From a virus: 36,328 nt of DNA. Positions 21,515-29,407 of this stretch are shown piece after piece. The position numbers and the translations under genes are program-made. The stretch spans positions 1 through 36,328 of the IMG/VR virus record IMGVR_UViG_3300028581_000115; one strand, given 5' to 3'. Numbering within the stretch: the stretch's first letter is position 1; each line of letters begins with the position of its first letter. Under the pieces are notes generated by a model. The model was not told where the DNA came from. It did no database searches and saw nothing but the letters and a program-made list of their open reading frames with translations.

Positions 21515-21555
21515 GGTTTTACCATTATAGGGTCAATAATACTCTGGCACAACAC
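21515..21555 (-). promoter_or_regulatory. Sigma70-like promoter downstream of terL
   Basis: On the minus strand TTGTGC (21547-21552) is followed after 17 bases by TATAAT (21524-21529), an exact -10. It overlaps the last codons and stop of terL and would drive the SLT/portal genes. The leader before ATG 21492 is about 25 bases. Confidence 0.55.
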
Positions 21556-22999
21556 TTCTTCTGTCTTCCTCGTCCTCGAAGTCCGTACCTAGGGAAATGA
21601 AGTTCCCTGCACGGAAACGAGATAAAGCCATGGTCATCGAGTCTACTTGGTCGTCATTTGAGCCATTAGGAAAGGCAGCACACTCCTCGATCATTTCTTG
21701 TGCCCATTCGTCATCCGATGCCCACACCATTCCAGACTCCAATATTGGTGCGATGGCATTGGCTCTCGATACTTTGTCCTGGCCCACTTTTCGCCCACCA
21801 GGGGAATACATGGTTACAGGGATGCCAAGACGACGCAATTCTTGCTGTAGGGGTGTTCCAGTGGCCTTGGCTTCAATGAGCACATTGTCAGGGTTCCAAT
21901 ACTTATACTCTTCAAGAGCGACTCGCTTAAGTTCGGGAAAATCCCAGCGACCTCGGCGTACGCCAAGCAGGATAATATTAGGGCCACTGTCACTATCGGG
22001 CGTAAATACACCCCAAGTACTGATGACAGAGTAGTCGGCTGTTTCTTTTTTAGAGTACGCTGTGTCGTACGATTGGATAATATATTCGCAAGGAGGCGGT
22101 TCGTCATAATCCCACTTTCTCCACCACTCTCTTTTCAGGATTGCTCCGTCATCGTTGGTGGGCTGTTGTTGCCATTGGGCGTTCCATTTTTGAAGGCCAA
22201 TGGACATCTTCACTTTTTCGAGCTCGTCTAACTTCCAGTAGCCAGGCCATAGGGGTTTACCACTAGGCAAGATGGCAGGAAATTCGAGCACTTCCCATTG
22301 ATCAGCTTTAATTTGTGACTGAGCTTTGATCAAGCGCCCAGCAACGTCATCGGTTTTCCACCGGGTGTTAATCAGGATTATTGCGCCACCAGGCTGCAGA
22401 CGTTGGCGTGGTCCAGAGGTATACCAGTCCCACGTATTCTCCATAGCGGTATCGGAGATCGCATCTTGTTCGTCCAAGATGTCATCAAGAATAATAATAT
22501 CACCGCCTCGGCCGGTCATCGCACCGCCCTTACCAATAAAGAACGCCTCACCACCAGCAGAAGTTGACCAACGGCCTGCCGCTTTGGAGTCAGCAGAGAG
22601 CGTTGTTCCTGGGAAAAGGTCCCTGTATCGTTCTTCGTCAACAAGGTTACGAATCATACGACCGAAGCGTTGCGCTAATTCAGCGGTGTGTGAGCCAACA
22701 ATTAGCTTGGATTGTGGCAACTTGCCCATTAAATAGGCAGGGAACAGGTATGACCCCATCTGGGATTTACCATGACGAGGGGGCATTGCAATAATGAGGC
22801 GCTTACATTCGCCAGAGACAACCCTGTCGAACTTCTCAGCGATTAGCTTGTGATGCTCACCGACGAGCATCTCCGGCCAAACGTATTGGCAGAAGTCCAG
22901 GAATCCGGACGTGGCCCGATCGTGGGCCTCGAGTAGCGCTTTACGATATTGGAGCCTTGCTAATTCGGCTTCAACATCTGGCGGAAGAGGTTGACTCAT
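21533..22999 (-). CDS. terL: Terminase large subunit
   Basis: A 488-residue ATPase/nuclease that pumps DNA into the procapsid. Walker A is PPRHGKS (73-79) and Walker B is DIIILDDILDE. The C-terminal RNase H-like nuclease shows its acidic residues in QSYDTAYSKKE, VLIEAKATG and NDDQVDSM. The length is standard. There is no obvious Shine-Dalgarno before ATG 22999; the upstream bases hold palindromes that may be regulatory. TerS is not adjacent but about 5.2 kb upstream. It docks on the portal encoded at 15344..17716. Confidence 0.95.
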   Translation of the reverse strand: MSQPLPPDVEAELARLQYRKALLEAHDRATSGFLDFCQYVWPEMLVGEHHKLIAEKFDRVVSGECKRLIIAMPPRHGKSQMGSYLFPAYLMGKLPQSKLIVGSHTAELAQRFGRMIRNLVDEERYRDLFPGTTLSADSKAAGRWSTSAGGEAFFIGKGGAMTGRGGDIIILDDILDEQDAISDTAMENTWDWYTSGPRQRLQPGGAIILINTRWKTDDVAGRLIKAQSQIKADQWEVLEFPAILPSGKPLWPGYWKLDELEKVKMSIGLQKWNAQWQQQPTNDDGAILKREWWRKWDYDEPPPCEYIIQSYDTAYSKKETADYSVISTWGVFTPDSDSGPNIILLGVRRGRWDFPELKRVALEEYKYWNPDNVLIEAKATGTPLQQELRRLGIPVTMYSPGGRKVGQDKVSRANAIAPILESGMVWASDDEWAQEMIEECAAFPNGSNDDQVDSMTMALSRFRAGNFISLGTDFEDEEDRRSVVPEYY

Positions 23000-23026
23000 G
23001 GGCGCATATTAACACAAGCTTTAATG

Positions 23027-23073
23027 ATACCTATAGGTATTAAAGAGTCCTTTAATTTGATACCTATATGTAT
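23027..23073. promoter_or_regulatory. Paired palindromic operator-like boxes before terL
   Basis: ATACCTATAGGTAT (23027-23040) is a perfect 14-bp palindrome, and ATACCTATATGTAT (23060-23073) is the same box with one change. Their centres are 33 bp apart, about three helical turns. On the minus strand TTGTCA (23077-23082) with TATCAA 17 bases on is a weak promoter candidate overlapping the second box. A dimeric regulator binding both is an inference. Confidence 0.5.
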
Positions 23074-23344
23074 AGTTATTGACAAAATGTATGCATATCC
23101 GCAGGGTTGTTGACATTAAGTTACAAAACAGGCATTTATGCACACAATAGTTGACAAGCTAGAAAACGACAAAATGACTCATAAAATAGTCAGTAAGCGA
23201 CACAATGACTTATTTATGAGTCAATAATAGTTTAAATTTAAACCATTAAATCAACTTACAGTAGATAGGAGTTGCTTTTTAGGCTACTACTGTTGCTTTA
23301 CAATCACCCACTCAAAACTTTACAATCATTTTACTTTTCTTTAC

Positions 23345-23420
23345 AAAAAACCCCGTTCGGGAATATTTTCGGTTTTTTCTACACTTTTTCGTACATTCTT
23401 CCCGTTCGGGAAACTTTTTT
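23345..23420. terminator. Pair of back-to-back hairpin terminators
   Basis: The hairpin CCCCGTTCGGG (23351-23361) is followed on the minus strand by a T6 run (complement of 23345-23350). The hairpin TTCCCGTTCGGGAA (23399-23412) is followed on the plus strand by T6 (23415-23420). Together they could stop transcription entering the region from both sides. The stems are short, so strength is uncertain. Confidence 0.5.
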
Positions 23421-23781
23421 GTTCAATATATTACACAAATTACAGGCTGTAGATTGTTTTTCCCAGTTACAACATTTACTTGGTTATTACTGGGAAATTT
23501 ACTTGGTTATTGCACATTAACATGGTGAGTGTTAGATAGAAAAAAGCGTGTTAAATATTTGATTTAATTGAATTAATTTTGCAAAAATAGGACATTAAAT
23601 GAGCATTGTTTGTCCGATATTTGTATAACTATTTGAGAAAAAATATATACCCCCACCCCAATCCTTTTTAAAAGGTAAGGGGGCCATTTCTGTTTTAGCT
23701 ATAAATGTTTGTCTGAAAATTGGGCTTAGGCTTGAAAAAAGAAAGGGGTGGTTTTTGGTCGGGTGGGGTAAAAGAATATCA

Positions 23782-23897
23782 AAGTGAAATGGAACTAGTT
23801 CCATTTCACTTAGCGTGGCGCAGAAACAACAGTCAAGGGATATCCCTTGACTGTCATACGATTGTATGATACGCAAGAGAGGGGCAAGCCCCTCTCT
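23782..23897. repeat. Four consecutive perfect hairpins at the 3' end of the small-gene region
   Basis: Perfect inverted repeats are: 23782-23811 (15-bp arms AAGTGAAATGGAACT, no spacer); 23829-23854 (13-bp arms ACAGTCAAGGGAT, no spacer); 23854-23869 (TCATAC/GTATGA with GATT loop); and 23876-23897 (AGAGAGGGGC/GCCCCTCTCT with AA). They start 3 bases after the stop of the 23900..24115 gene and follow one another with little spacing. No T-run follows, so they are not ordinary terminators. Confidence 0.85.
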
Positions 23898-23899
23898 GC

Positions 23900-24115
23900 T
23901 TAGGCGGTTGCCTCTTGAGGCTTTGCCAGTTCTGCTATATCTCTACCTGTCATCAGGTAGATAGTGATGATTGGTGGAGTGTCCTCCACCAATACAGCGT
24001 GAGCTCCATTCACATAAGCGTGCTGGAATTCCTGGTACTTCTTAGTACCAGGCTTGAGACTGTTGGAATAGGCATAGCTATTCCAGCCCTCTGCTATTTG
24101 TTGTGTCTTAGTCAT
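23900..24115 (-). CDS. Small hypothetical protein with hairpin-filled coding sequence
   Basis: A 71-residue protein (MTKTQQIAEGWNSYAYSNSL...KKYQEFQHAYVNGAHAVLVED...). It has a helical N-terminal half and a beta-like C-terminal half; no family was recognised. It overlaps the upstream gene by 8 bases. The coding sequence contains four perfect stem-loops: 23943-23960, 23970-23993 (10-bp arms), 24031-24052 (9-bp arms) and 24064-24085. Such density is not required by the protein. Function unknown. Confidence 0.6.
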   Translation of the reverse strand: MTKTQQIAEGWNSYAYSNSLKPGTKKYQEFQHAYVNGAHAVLVEDTPPIITIYLMTGRDIAELAKPQEATA

Positions 24116-24293
24116 ACAAACCTCCGATATCCTCTAAGCTGGTGACGAGTCCGTCAAAGTCTTCTGTCTCACCAAGTAAGTCAGCCAGCATAGAGACCAC
24201 ATCTCTATCTAGTCCCATGTTATCGGCTAAGTCGTCAAGATAATCTTGACGATCAGCGTAACCATTCATCTCATATACATTATCAATAATCAT
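24108..24293 (-). CDS. Small acidic hypothetical protein
   Basis: A 61-residue acidic protein (MIIDNVYEMNGYADRQDYLDDLADNMGLDRDVVSMLADLLGE...) rich in Asp and Leu, probably all helical. The start ATG 24293 lies 9 bases after AAGGAG in the shared leader GGAGAAATGAGAAATG; the earlier ATG 24300 hits a stop within six codons. It has in-gene hairpins at 24190-24208 and 24232-24252 (10-bp arms). First gene of a two-gene cassette behind a TATAAT box and a 13-bp-arm hairpin. Confidence 0.6.
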   Translation of the reverse strand: MIIDNVYEMNGYADRQDYLDDLADNMGLDRDVVSMLADLLGETEDFDGLVTSLEDIGGLYD

Positions 24294-24311
24294 TTCTCAT
24301 TTCTCCTTGAG

Positions 24312-24350
24312 TTACATGGGATCAGGTGATCCCATGTAAGTATTATACAT
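24312..24350 (-). promoter_or_regulatory. Cassette promoter with 5' hairpin (gene 24108..24293)
   Basis: On the minus strand TGTATAATAC (TATAAT at 24342-24347) is followed at once by a hairpin with 13-bp perfect arms TTACATGGGATCA/TGATCCCATGTAA and a 2-base loop (24312-24339). The shared leader and gene follow. The transcript would begin about at the hairpin. No clear -35 is seen. Confidence 0.6.
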
Positions 24351-24401
24351 CAAGATAATCCAAGAGTGTAAAGAAAATAATCATCAGGATTATCCCTAGG
24401 A

Positions 24402-24707
24402 TCATTCCTCCTCCATCTCTTCAATCGGGCATTGAATCTTGGCACCAGGCCAATAAGCAATCATGTCTCCACCCATGTTATCTAGGTGAGGGGCAGGGAC
24501 AATTGAAGTATCTGCCCAGATGTTCTCAGAATAGACTGCCCGTGCCATTTCATAACCTAACTCAAACAAAGCTCCCCGGGGAATTTCAACTCCCAGGCAT
24601 AACTGGCCGTTCATACCCCTTCCGGAGTATGAACGAATCGAATCACAAAAAGAGGTGTTCTCGAGTAACTCGAGAACAAGCCTAGCCTGTTCGTTCATTG
24701 GTTTCAT
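24402..24707 (-). CDS. Hypothetical phage protein
   Basis: A 101-residue protein with a helical N-terminus (MNEQARLVLELLENTSF), a central GRGMNGQLCLGVEIPRGALFELGYEMARAVYSE and an acidic end (PIEEMEEE). No family is assigned. The ATG overlaps the stop of the upstream gene by 4 bases (ATGA), favouring M1 over M4. The coding region contains a 10-bp-arm hairpin (24657-24677) and an 8-bp-arm one (24609-24634). Confidence 0.55.
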   Translation of the reverse strand: MKPMNEQARLVLELLENTSFCDSIRSYSGRGMNGQLCLGVEIPRGALFELGYEMARAVYSENIWADTSIVPAPHLDNMGGDMIAYWPGAKIQCPIEEMEEE

Positions 24708-24943
24708 GATTTCATCGCTTTCTCAACTGTCTCATCTAACCAAACATCATAAGCGGATTTAGAGCCATTGTCCTCTAACCACAAGCGAAGATTCTTTTCA
24801 AAGATTTCGGGGAAAGCTTCGATTAGTTTACGACTATTAGTTCCGTCGGCATGATAGAAAAGCTTAGCAAGCTTTGACTCAAAGCCCCCGCCCATACGTT
24901 CCATATTTTGCGCTGCTTTATGTGCATCTTCGTAAGTCATCAT
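24704..24943 (-). CDS. Hypothetical phage protein
   Basis: A 79-residue helical protein (MMTYEDAHKAAQNMERMGGGFESKLAKLFYHADG...). A longer frame starts at ATG 24949, but that ATG is only 2 bases after AAGGAG. ATG 24943 is 8 bases after it, the same geometry as the neighbouring cassettes, so I use 24943. An in-gene hairpin (AAAGCTT/AAGCTTT, 24859-24875) is present. First gene of a cassette with promoter and 26-bp palindrome upstream. Confidence 0.6.
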   Translation of the reverse strand: MMTYEDAHKAAQNMERMGGGFESKLAKLFYHADGTNSRKLIEAFPEIFEKNLRLWLEDNGSKSAYDVWLDETVEKAMKS

Positions 24944-24961
24944 TCTCATTTCTCCTTAAGT

Positions 24962-25000
24962 AAGTAAGGGAGTTAACTCCCTTACTTGGTATTATACACT
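24962..25000 (-). promoter_or_regulatory. Cassette promoter with 5' palindrome (gene 24704..24943)
   Basis: On the minus strand TATAAT (24991-24996) in GTGTATAATACC is followed by a perfect 26-bp palindrome (24962-24987, half-site AAGTAAGGGAGTT) and then AAGGAG and the gene. The box lies 3 bases from the stop of the preceding gene (25003..25305), so the promoter fits in the shortest possible gap. Confidence 0.6.
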
Positions 25001-25002
25001 AG

Positions 25003-25305
25003 TTACTCTTCTTCGTCTTCAATCTCTTCAGGATTATCAATTGCCCATTGCTCGAGAACACCTCGAGCAAGTTCCGTCCAATTAACAGTTGATAAAAAAC
25101 CCTGAACAATTCCACCTGTGAATCCGTCATAGGTATATTCATGCCCAATACACTCGCCAACATATTCTTGAATAACTTGCCCAGCTTCATAAGCTTCTTC
25201 TACTGAGTAGTGTTCTATGCCCAAATCTTGGGCATCCATGCCGTCAAGAATTTCTAGGTTTGTCTTCCATGTTTCCCAATTGCTCCAGCCGTTGTATGTG
25301 CTCAT
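25003..25305 (-). CDS. Conserved phage protein (NGWxNWETW family, DUF7249-like)
   Basis: A 100-residue acidic protein. The N-terminus MSTYNGWSNWETWKTNLEI is a widespread phage motif; a C-terminal WAIDNPEEIEDEEE is strongly acidic. The middle (EEAYEAGQVIQEYVGECIGHE) is helical. Function unknown, possibly an early host-takeover or inhibitor protein. The start has the AAAGAGAAATGAGAAATG leader. In-gene hairpins are at 25048-25070 (9-bp arms) and 25217-25235 (8-bp arms). Confidence 0.65.
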   Translation of the reverse strand: MSTYNGWSNWETWKTNLEILDGMDAQDLGIEHYSVEEAYEAGQVIQEYVGECIGHEYTYDGFTGGIVQGFLSTVNWTELARGVLEQWAIDNPEEIEDEEE

Positions 25306-25325
25306 TTCTCATTTCTCTTTAGTCC

Positions 25326-25365
25326 TTGGGTCACGGATTGTGACCCAATACAGGTATTATACACC
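25326..25365 (-). promoter_or_regulatory. Cassette promoter with 5' hairpin (gene 25003..25305)
   Basis: On the minus strand GGTGTATAATACC (TATAAT 25356-25361) is followed by a hairpin with 9-bp arms TTGGGTCAC/GTGACCCAA and a 5-base loop (25326-25348), then AAAGAGAAATGAGAAATG and the gene. Same order as the two preceding cassettes. Confidence 0.6.
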
Positions 25366-25528
25366 AAAACAACAGGCATAGGGGAAATATATTTCCCCTT
25401 AATAATCAAGGCCTTGGGCCTTGATTCACGGATAACGGGACAAGGACCATGGGCCAAGGCCCATGGGGAAAGTTTCACGGAAAAAGAGGCAAGGACCAAG
25501 GGTCTAGTTTTCATAAGCTGTATGAACT

Positions 25529-25620
25529 GCCTAAAAAATAGGCAATCGACTCTGTCCCCTTTAATTTACTGACTCTGTCCCCTTTTTGCTCGTGGTTTAC
25601 CGGTTGCCTAAAAAATAGGC
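25529..25620. repeat. Two GCCTAAAAAATAGGC hairpins and two GACTCTGTCCCCTTT repeats
   Basis: GCCTAAAAAATAGGC occurs at 25529-25543 and 25606-25620 on the plus strand; a third copy is inverted at 29659-29673. GACTCTGTCCCCTTT occurs at 25548-25562 and 25571-25585, with a third copy inside a coding gene at 33098-33112. These are dispersed repeats whose origin is not clear. The hairpin pair brackets the direct repeats. Confidence 0.8.
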
Positions 25621-25678
25621 ATTTCTTATGATTATTAGTCATAAGAAATAGGTTACATATGATTTATTGCTATATAGA

Positions 25679-25984
25679 TTAAAGCTCAAAATCAAGGGTA
25701 TATCCACTAAAGGGAATAATTTGACCATCGGCCAAGCGAACAAACCAACAGAAGTTTTTTTGATAAACAGAAAACCGGCCCCCACAAAAAGTATTGGAGA
25801 ATTGATTCATTCTTACTTTAGTGGTGCGGGTTTGCCATCCTCCCGTGTTTAAGTGTATTTTATTGTCATTCTCAATACTTGCAACATCCGTAAGCTGATA
25901 AGTACCAACCACAGTTTTGCCCCAGCTTCCGGCCAAATGTTTCACAGTAGTTGCCACACCTTGAAATTTATGTAATTGCGTCAT
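25679..25984 (-). CDS. Conserved phage protein (TGGW-x-TRTTxxRMNQ type)
   Basis: A 101-residue beta-rich protein. The blocks VASIENDNKIHLNTGGWQTRTT, KVRMNQFSNTF and FSVYQKNFCWFVRL followed by a terminal strand resemble a common phage protein of unknown function. Its ATG follows AGGAGAAATTAGAAATG, a one-base variant of the cassette leader. It is monocistronic: a promoter is just upstream and the 373-base gap is downstream. Confidence 0.65.
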   Translation of the reverse strand: MTQLHKFQGVATTVKHLAGSWGKTVVGTYQLTDVASIENDNKIHLNTGGWQTRTTKVRMNQFSNTFCGGRFSVYQKNFCWFVRLADGQIIPFSGYTLDFEL

Positions 25985-26011
25985 TTCTAATTTCTCCTAA
26001 GTTAAGGGGAG

Positions 26012-26047
26012 CCCGTCCCCATGTTTAGTATTATACATGAGGACGGG
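26012..26047 (-). promoter_or_regulatory. Cassette promoter enclosed in an inverted repeat (gene 25679..25984)
   Basis: CCCGTCCCCATG (26012-26023) and CATGAGGACGGG (26036-26047) are 12-bp arms with one mismatch. Their 12-base loop contains TATAAT on the minus strand (26030-26035) within TGTATAATAC. A second small stem GGGGA/TCCCC lies at 26006-26020. This promoter thus sits in the loop of a potential cruciform, unlike the other cassettes. Confidence 0.55.
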
Positions 26048-26054
26048 AAAGAGA

Positions 26055-26627
26055 TCAAATTGTTTCTTCGGCTTTCAACCAATCAGGGGTTTGCTTAATT
26101 TTGACCTCATTTCGCATTGGCATAACCACCCCAATAAAACGCTCAAGGCCCAAATCCACTAAAGCGGACGATCCGCCATTATGTGCGATTACAGGAAATT
26201 TAGAGCCATTCAATAATTTAGAGCACTTGGCAAAACGATTAATTAGCTCAGGGTTAAATTGTGAAGCCTCCCCCGTTGCTGGTTTCGTTGGTAAAACCCT
26301 CATGTAATCAGGAAATTTGCCATCAATCGGGGTAAAGTTAATCCCATCAATTACCCAGTTACCATGCTCATTGGTGGATAAGAAATTATCTACTTTATCC
26401 AGCTTAGCAATAATCTCCGTAGGAATGATGATGGAAAAAGCTTTATCGTCATGTGCCGTTTCGCTGACCTGAAGCACACCCAATAAGTGGCCATCCGTTG
26501 CGACCAAACGGGTATGCTGGCTATTGGATTCCACTAAAACCCCATTTAGGTAATAACGGATATCTTGCTTTGAGGCCAACAATGCCATTGCCTTAAGACT
26601 GTTTTTTGGTAGTAAGATTGCGTTCAT
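26055..26627 (-). CDS. Shortened beta sliding clamp-like protein (lacks domain I)
   Basis: A 190-residue protein resembling the middle and end of DnaN. QDIRYYLNGVLVE (21-33) and RLVATDGHLLGV (40-51) correspond to E. coli QDVRYYLNGMLFE and RTVATDGHRLAV in domain II. DGKFPDYMRVLP (102-113) matches DGRFPDYRRVLP, and GVVMPMR (166-172) matches the C-terminal VVMPMR. Domain I (about 125 residues) and about 40 residues of domain III are absent. It may be a phage processivity factor or a clamp mimic. The shared cassette leader precedes ATG 26627. Confidence 0.75.
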   Translation of the reverse strand: MNAILLPKNSLKAMALLASKQDIRYYLNGVLVESNSQHTRLVATDGHLLGVLQVSETAHDDKAFSIIIPTEIIAKLDKVDNFLSTNEHGNWVIDGINFTPIDGKFPDYMRVLPTKPATGEASQFNPELINRFAKCSKLLNGSKFPVIAHNGGSSALVDLGLERFIGVVMPMRNEVKIKQTPDWLKAEETI

Positions 26628-26644
26628 TTCTCATTTCTCCTTGT

Positions 26645-26664
26645 AAAACTGTATTATACATACC
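26645..26664 (-). promoter_or_regulatory. Cassette promoter box (clamp-like gene)
   Basis: On the minus strand TATGTATAATACAG (TATAAT 26653-26658) precedes AGGAGAAATGAGAAATG and ATG 26627. There is no hairpin here; the leader is only about 20 bases. Confidence 0.5.
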
Positions 26665-26865
26665 TTAATAAATCATGTCCATTATTTTTTGATCCAACAA
26701 GGTAAAGTCTTCTGACAAAGCCTCTAGCACGTCATCAGGGAGAGGAGTGCCATCTAAATAGCATCCTTCGCTAAAGTATCCATCACAAAAATCAGGATAG
26801 TCTCTCATGTCGATACCATCGACGATTAGCGAACTCATGTCGATTAAATCACGATTTATCACCAT
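26665..26865 (-). CDS. Conserved acidic phage protein (DYPDFCDxYF type)
   Basis: A 66-residue acidic protein with DGIDMRDYPDFCDGYFSEGCYLDG (read in two parts, a common phage motif) and LPDDVLEALSEDF. An in-frame ATG at 26877 exists. ATG 26865 has GGAG 6 bases upstream and lies 1 base after the stop of the micro-ORF 26867..26935 (TGATATG), so I take 26865. Similar proteins are found in many phages; function unknown. Confidence 0.65.
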   Translation of the reverse strand: MVINRDLIDMSSLIVDGIDMRDYPDFCDGYFSEGCYLDGTPLPDDVLEALSEDFTLLDQKIMDMIY

Positions 26866-26866
26866 A

Positions 26867-26935
26867 TCATTCTCCATCCAAGAAATCTAATAAAGCCCAA
26901 AATGCAATAAAGCCAATAAGGACAACAAATATCAT
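26867..26935 (-). CDS. 22-residue membrane micro-ORF
   Basis: ATG 26935 overlaps the TGA of the 26932..27582 gene (ATGA). The frame reads MIFVVLIGFIAFWALLDFLD plus two residues and stops at TGA 26867-26869, one base before the next start. The peptide is a single hydrophobic helix with an acidic end. Coupling on both sides favours translation; no homology can be claimed. No strong Shine-Dalgarno is seen, so it would depend on reinitiation. Confidence 0.45.
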   Translation of the reverse strand: MIFVVLIGFIAFWALLDFLDGE

Positions 26936-27582
26936 AGGGCCCCCACAGTCGCACCAGCATAAGCACTTACATAAATCGCTCTCTCTGCGCCCTCAATTAG
27001 CTCAACTGCACCATCCTGCCAGCAAGTAGATTCGTACATTCCACACGATTCGTCATAAATCTCTTCACCATCTCGATAAGCCTTTACTGATACCCAAACG
27101 TAATACCAGTCGTCATTCATATAGCCTTCGAAGAACTTCATCTCGTGTTGCACCGACTCAAGTGCCAAACGATCAGCAAACGATTTGCCATATTTATTGC
27201 CTGAGAAATCCTTACGTGCCTTGGCCAAAGCATCCGCAAAATTGTAATAATAGTTTTCACGGCCTGAACTGCGTAACTGAACGTTGCCGTTGCCAGCATA
27301 TTCAGAATAACGTTCCATCTGCTTAACTGTTCCCCACCCTTCACACCAATCCCACGGGGTTTCATGCCATTGCTCAGGTTCAACTTTAAGCACAATAGAG
27401 CATCCGTCCGGTAAGCCAGCGTCTAATTCAATCTCTTGGCCCTTCTCATAATTCCAATGGTTATTATCAAGGCCATAGCTCCTAGTCTTGATCAAGCTCT
27501 TGGCAATCAGATAAGACTGCTTAACGTTGGTGCTATGCTCTTTGCGTACTTCTTTATAGGTTTTGCGTAATAGATCATTCAT
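26932..27582 (-). CDS. Conserved phage protein of unknown function
   Basis: A 216-residue protein rich in Trp, Tyr and acidic residues. The N-terminal helix (MNDLLRKTYKEVRKEHSTNVKQSYLIAKSL, in parts) is followed by QWHETPWDWCEGWGTVKQMERY and a C-terminal half with WYYVWVSVKAYRDGEEIYDESCG. The pattern suggests a compact soluble domain seen in other phages, but I do not know its role. The start is set by TGGAGAAATGAGAAATG. It heads a small cassette with the micro-ORF and the DYPDFCD protein. Confidence 0.6.
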   Translation of the reverse strand: MNDLLRKTYKEVRKEHSTNVKQSYLIAKSLIKTRSYGLDNNHWNYEKGQEIELDAGLPDGCSIVLKVEPEQWHETPWDWCEGWGTVKQMERYSEYAGNGNVQLRSSGRENYYYNFADALAKARKDFSGNKYGKSFADRLALESVQHEMKFFEGYMNDDWYYVWVSVKAYRDGEEIYDESCGMYESTCWQDGAVELIEGAERAIYVSAYAGATVGAL

Positions 27583-29353: not shown

Positions 29354-29363
29354 CTTATTCTCC

Positions 29364-29407
29364 TTAAGTTTAAACTTAAGTTTAAACTCTATCTAAGGGT
29401 TTGTCAA
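29364..29407 (-). promoter_or_regulatory. Strong promoter overlapped by palindromic operator, terS operon
   Basis: On the minus strand a perfect TTGACA (29402-29407) is followed after exactly 17 bases by TAAACT (29379-29384). The -10 lies inside a perfect 22-bp palindrome (29367-29388, half AGTTTAAACTT). A second overlapping 16-bp palindrome TTAAGTTTAAACTTAA spans 29364-29379. Transcription would start at the downstream edge. Repressor control is an inference. Confidence 0.75.

Follow-up and report, generated by a model that had tools for sequence, protein, structure and literature searches.

Our analysis of a 36,328-base virus record, the whole stretch of which is referred to here as the window, identified a dense array of short, perfect inverted repeats before the terminase large subunit gene (terL), the stems of which are maintained across a group of related phages. 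The explanation that we favor, and hold to be probable, is that these hairpins are made and homogenized by template switching and that selection retains them, at a minimum those in the 5' leaders of short phage mRNAs.

The hairpin array in the window

A scripted search for perfect inverted repeats with arms of at least 9 bases and loops of 0–5 bases found 14 of them between positions 23782 and 25466, exactly the number that a sequence-only reading of this DNA had given as a minimum, and also recovered the repeat which that reading had added at 25621–25649. By chance, approximately 0.05 repeats would be expected in 23782–25466, and sequences generated from 23782–25649 under Markov models of order 1, 2, and 3 gave means of 0.055, 0.02, and 0.06 repeats (maximum, 2 in 400), in line with the claimed rarity. 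The 34.5 kb of the window outside the array contain 2 repeats once overlaps are removed, so that the density is not genome-wide. Every repeat of the array has a different sequence in the window, as had been stated, and a DNA search of the window against a phage collection returned no match.

Five of the window's repeats lie inside genes, and the ORFs that host them (23900–24115, 24108–24293, 24402–24707, and 25003–25305, all on the minus strand) are plausible. The in-gene repeats of the earlier reading are all present, although the one given as 24657–24677 is really 24656–24678, with 11-bp arms. Codon-permuted versions of five window genes contained a mean of 0.11 repeats with arms of at least 9 bases (maximum, 2 of 1000), against 5 observed, and 18 other window genes (17.4 kb) contain none; the earlier reading had likewise noted no such repeats in the other genes that it read. 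The 71 amino acid ORF has orthologues in the related contigs L009, L010, L012, L013, and L015, and the 101 amino acid ORF has a weak match to phrog_14658 (unknown function).

The window's small genes are encoded on the minus strand, and three of them (starts at 24293, 24949, and 25305) are preceded by a cassette with the order TATAAT -10 box, a few bases, palindrome, Shine-Dalgarno site, and ATG (Table 1). The gene starting at 25984 has a shorter stem, and the one starting at 26627 has no stem.

Table 1. Features of the hairpin array and its surroundings in the window.
Feature	Position	Strand	Remark
Terminase large subunit gene (terL)	21533..22999	-	Anchor used for finding relatives
Perfect palindrome, arms 15, loop 0	23782..23811	-	Downstream of gene 23900-24115
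Perfect palindrome, arms 13, loop 0	23829..23854	-	Intergenic
Inverted repeat, arms 10, loop 2	23876..23897	-	Directly past stop codon of gene 23900-24115
71-aa ORF	23900..24115	-	Hairpins 23942-23961, 23970-23993, 24031-24052, 24064-24085 inside
Inverted repeat, arms 10, loop 4	23970..23993	-	In-gene
Inverted repeat, arms 9, loop 4	24031..24052	-	In-gene
61-aa ORF	24108..24293	-	MIIDNVYEM...
Inverted repeat, arms 10, loop 1	24232..24252	-	In-gene
Palindrome, arms 13, loop 2	24312..24339	-	5' leader; two bases past -10 box
-10 box TATAAT	24342..24347	-	Cassette before gene 24108-24293; from sequence
101-aa ORF	24402..24707	-	Hairpins 24608-24635 and 24656-24678 inside
Inverted repeat, arms 11, loop 1	24656..24678	-	In-gene; 9-bp form kept in L009
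81-aa ORF	24704..24949	-	
Palindrome, arms 13, loop 0	24962..24987	-	5' leader; identical in L009
-10 box TATAAT	24991..24996	-	Cassette before gene 24704-24949; from sequence
100-aa ORF	25003..25305	-	Pfam DUF7249; hairpins 25048-25070 and 25217-25235 inside
Inverted repeat, arms 9, loop 5	25048..25070	-	In-gene
Inverted repeat, arms 9, loop 5	25326..25348	-	5' leader
-10 box TATAAT	25356..25361	-	Cassette before gene 25003-25305; from sequence
Perfect palindrome, arms 10, loop 0	25380..25399	-	About 19 bases upstream of -10 box
Inverted repeat, arms 10, loop 3	25404..25426	-	Intergenic
Inverted repeat, arms 9, loop 2	25447..25466	-	Intergenic
Inverted repeat, arms 11, loop 7	25621..25649	-	Intergenic
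Short leader hairpin, 5 pairs	26006..26020	-	Cassette before gene 25679-25984

Between the array and terL, no convincing genes were found in the roughly 780 bases of positions 23000–23780, which are a candidate for an origin or a packaging site. Within this segment, 23640–23780 is well conserved with L009 (e.g., GGGGTGGGGGTATATA), and 23150–23240 contains imperfect repeats of TGACTCATAAATAAGTCA. Direct repeats of AAAGGGGACAGAGTC (two copies) and GCCTATTTTTTAGGC (two copies, one as GCCTAAAAAATAGGC) lie within 90 bases at 25535–25625, and a lone palindrome, AGTTTAAACTTAAGTTTAAACT, is located outside the array at 29363–29388. The 190 amino acid protein encoded at 26055–26627 matches the central domain of the DNA polymerase III beta clamp (Pfam PF02767), and its best PHROG is labelled RusA-like resolvase.

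Distribution among relatives and maintenance of the stems

Since the window proteins 24402–24707 and 25003–25305 matched no or one relative, the large terminase (TerL) was used as anchor, which gave 80 contigs with related TerL proteins; these were searched for repeats with arms of at least 9 bases and loops of up to 8. In approximately 80 contigs, the 3 kb before terL contain 437 repeats in 188,580 bases, against 27 repeats in 686,884 bases from terL onward in the same contigs, an approximately 59-fold lower density. Four of six long genomes (57.6–60 kb read) have one strong cluster adjoining terL; G007 and G010, the remaining two, belong to hairpin-poor branches and show few repeats in any part. 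The same hairpins recur in contigs from different data sets (e.g., L061/L062; L010/L012/L013), and a metagenome artefact was rejected on this ground.

In the TerL tree, the window falls inside a well-supported, repeat-rich group of 55 rows, and most members of the neighbouring branches have 0–4 repeats. The nearest named phages by TerL are DSL-LC04 (65% identity), HTVC027P (55%), and relatives; upstream of terL, DSL-LC04 and HTVC027P have almost no repeats and HTVC023P has a few, and the terms inverted repeat, palindrome, and stem-loop are absent from the paper on the HTVC023P-type genome. A sister branch shares part of the set of small genes and has few hairpins, and some hairpin-poor relatives (L043 and L041) have related small genes without dense hairpins. 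The array is lineage-specific and occupies the stretch of variable small genes that separates the replication genes from terL. The phages of the group are mostly aquatic, and one relative with five such repeats sits in a Rhodoferax MAG, which weakly hints at a betaproteobacterial host.

Two further observations concern the region before terL. In L041 and L043, G+C-rich low-complexity stretches (GGCCGTGGCCC and CCCAGCTGGCC), rather than dense perfect palindromes, occupy the interval from 600 to 200 bases before the gene. Seven contigs (L016, L017, L040, L054, L063, L080, and L085) stop no more than about 80 bases before the match to terL, far above chance; either the genome ends there or the assembly broke off in the variable hairpin region.

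In the relatives, too, many small genes are preceded by the promoter cassette. A palindrome lies upstream of 46 of the 105 cluster genes preceded by a gap, against 4 of 56 elsewhere, and, of 137 intergenic hairpins, 22 (16%) have an exact TATAAT nearby, compared with 0.9% of random sites. In L046 and L061, orthologous genes have palindromes at the same place with unrelated sequences. RNA folding of the leaders, with start sites inferred from the -10 boxes, gave a 5'-terminal stem that leaves the Shine-Dalgarno site outside. The cassette of 24312–24339 recurs in L009, about 719 bases before its terL match, with the same 13-bp arms and an inverted loop (CC/GG); it precedes different genes in the window and in L009, suggesting cassette movement or conversion between neighbouring promoters. 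Other palindromes lie inside ORFs, after stop codons, or between -35 and -10. In L010, L018, L044, L066, and L050, palindromes fill the -35/-10 spacer exactly (e.g., ACACAGGGAGCAATCCCTGTGTATAAT). Within 177 non-redundant cluster genes, 52 in-gene repeats were found, against 3.6 after codon permutation; codon shuffling thus reproduces the density neither in the window nor in the relatives.

The 445 repeats comprise 181 non-redundant sequences. Stems were compared between hairpins with orthologous flanks (7.6% diverged; 1,319 core stem pairs), a filter that was needed because the unfiltered compensation count was swamped by non-orthologous pairs at 65–75% identity. Single stem changes numbered 53 against approximately 186 expected, a depletion of about 3.5-fold relative to flanks that are themselves constrained; sense-GU, antisense-GU, and transversion changes contributed 20, 12, and 21, against 49, 49, and 87 expected. 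Compensatory changes numbered 15 against 2.6 expected, an enrichment of about 6-fold. The few single changes and the excess of compensatory ones indicate that pairing is kept while sequence drifts. The stems are maintained across the phage group, and the conservation in relatives that the earlier reading had proposed to look for takes the form of pairing maintained between orthologous hairpins.

Probable template switching, selection, and rival explanations

Sequence comparison strongly suggests that template switching creates and flips the hairpins of the array. Where the arms are conserved and the loop has 2–3 nt, all 7 changes are exact loop inversions (p = 1.5e-4 and 5e-5); among 4-nt loops there is one further exact inversion and another that is one base short of inversion, and in loops of at least 4 nt point changes are commoner than inversions. 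When a hairpin is compared with a hairpin-less orthologue, the differences pile up in one arm (sum of 51 vs. 36.4, p = 0.016, 23 cases), a result that depends on the alignment. For example, 24232–24252 differs from L009, which lacks this hairpin, at one position in one arm and at four in the other, with the same amino acids, and 25048–25070 has one arm intact and four changes in the other relative to L009. In yeast, template switching homogenizes arms over 9 bp and inverts spacers of 2–5 bp (PMC8604942), and in RNA genes it is described as able to create and maintain hairpins (PMC8794818). A hairpin-making mutational process, one of the options of the sequence-only reading, is well supported by the exact loop inversions, the one-arm differences, and the homogenization of arms.

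In the mechanism that we propose, a polymerase would switch template across short inverted repeats, generating new hairpins with identical arms and a flipped loop. Selection would then preserve pairing and not sequence, as seen in the depleted single changes and the excess of compensatory ones, a signal to which template-switch repair also contributes. In the leader copies, a hairpin at or near the mRNA 5' end would most likely slow decay or insulate the ribosome site. The in-gene hairpins may protect the same mRNAs, or a local hot spot of template switching may produce them as tolerated by-products.

Selection for RNA structure had also been put forward. Selection on structure is supported by the depleted single changes, the compensatory changes, and the fixed place between -10 box and Shine-Dalgarno site; that RNA is the selected level is likely. 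GNRA loops occur 5 times on the sense strand and 0 times on the other, and single G-U changes are tolerated somewhat more than A-C changes (20 to 12), a bias that is not significant (p = 0.2). Zero-loop and spacer palindromes point partly to DNA: the former make up 51 of the 181 sequences, about 10 times commoner than a 4-nt RNA loop would need, and the latter lie outside the transcript of that promoter. In cassettes with a 2-nt gap, the outer 4–5 pairs precede the start site expected for the promoter, so that they are left unexplained by a hairpin in its own mRNA. Transcription reading through from promoters farther upstream could reconcile an RNA role with these observations. Sites acting on DNA, either duplex operators (e.g., of a dimeric regulator) or cruciform or ssDNA hairpins for replication or packaging beside terL, would account for the over-represented zero-loop palindromes, the weak strand asymmetry, and the operator-like overlap with -35/-10 spacers and start sites. 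However, the sequences differ among the promoters of one genome and half-site spacing varies, unlike the operators of one protein, many hairpins are inside genes or far from promoters, and the palindrome centres are mostly G+C-rich (GGCC, CGCG, CCGG), which disfavours cruciform extrusion; a cruciform function was rejected on this last ground, and we regard DNA-level sites as quite unlikely.

A purely mutational origin, in which a template-switch hot spot, perhaps owing to strong transcription or to a nearby site of replication or packaging, yields functionless hairpins, is possible but doubtful. The loop inversions and one-arm changes fit it, as does the presence of hairpins in every segment type, including coding sequence and promoter spacers; in yeast, highly transcribed DNA is reported to undergo more quasi-palindrome mutation through template switching (PMC3820800), a link that would favor such a hot spot. 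Against it stand the depletion of single stem changes, the leader palindromes that keep their place before orthologues despite unrelated sequences, and the excess of point changes over inversions in loops of at least 4 nt; from this last, as a rough inference, correction at such a rate would seem insufficient by itself to hold 20-base stems perfect. It is unlikely, though conceivable, that dedicated or locally induced hairpin-making (replication-linked template switching on the 2-kb region by terL) remodels small early genes and leaders and that the hairpin-dense patch is itself selected, for instance as a general shield of the region's transcripts or DNA against host nucleases or defence. Intrinsic terminators or ordinary intergenic stem-loops are a very improbable account, and the terminator reading is mostly refuted: some hairpins of relatives are followed by T runs (e.g., AACCCGGGCC-GT-GGCCCGGGTTTTTT in L061) and positions 22900–27000 contain 8 terminator-like sites against 3.2 in shuffles, but just 2 of the 14 window repeats (23782–23811 and the in-gene 24656–24678) are terminator-like with a T-rich tail, and many hairpins lie before start codons or within genes. 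Mobile palindromic repeats of the REP or Rickettsia RPE type were rejected, as neither the window copies nor the non-redundant set shares a family sequence. No Rfam RNA family scored above the gathering score, the sole match being sub-threshold and due to chance.

Significance and comparison with known systems

The origin and upkeep of long perfect hairpins is an old question, for which rare individual events have been the usual material. In this large phage group, a single small locus presents hairpins in the hundreds, at every stage and with recurrent loop inversion, so that metagenomes could allow direct measurement of how fast hairpins are created, inverted, repaired, and lost. The array also points to a layout of phage early genes in which the leader hairpin is fixed by position while its sequence turns over. 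A limited literature search found no description of such an array.

The small PeSL promoter/stem-loop cassettes of T4-type phages, the subject of Arbiol et al. in 2010, reportedly lie between small non-essential genes in variable regions. They share with the array a sigma-70-like promoter and an adjacent stem-loop between small genes, and the cassette found before different genes in the window and L009 is a further likeness. Unlike in PeSL, the hairpin of the array lies in the leader, past the -10 box, and coding sequence is filled with hairpins as well; the terminator trait of PeSL is absent from the window leader hairpins, which have no T run, and from most others.

Template-switch (quasipalindrome) mutation (PMC8604942; PMC8794818) matches the array in perfect arms, exact inversion of short loops, one-arm changes, and compensatory double changes, but in these phages the repeats crowd a single 2-kb locus throughout the group and occupy both coding and non-coding DNA. 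In hairworm (Nematomorpha) mitochondria, coding palindromes have arms of up to 142 bp and template switching has been proposed (PMC6649704). Those palindromes are likewise perfect repeats in protein genes, with mismatch-free arms, gained and lost by genes, whereas the arms described here are of 9–15 bp, mostly intergenic, tied to promoters, and found in dsDNA phages. Finally, the mRNAs of ompA and papA have 5'-terminal stabilizing stem-loops (cited in PMC3997798). From the -10 boxes and the RNA folds, the leader stems of the array are predicted to stand at or beside the 5' end of the transcript and to leave the Shine-Dalgarno site free, but their sequence differs in nearly every copy and their outer pairs reach upstream of the start site.
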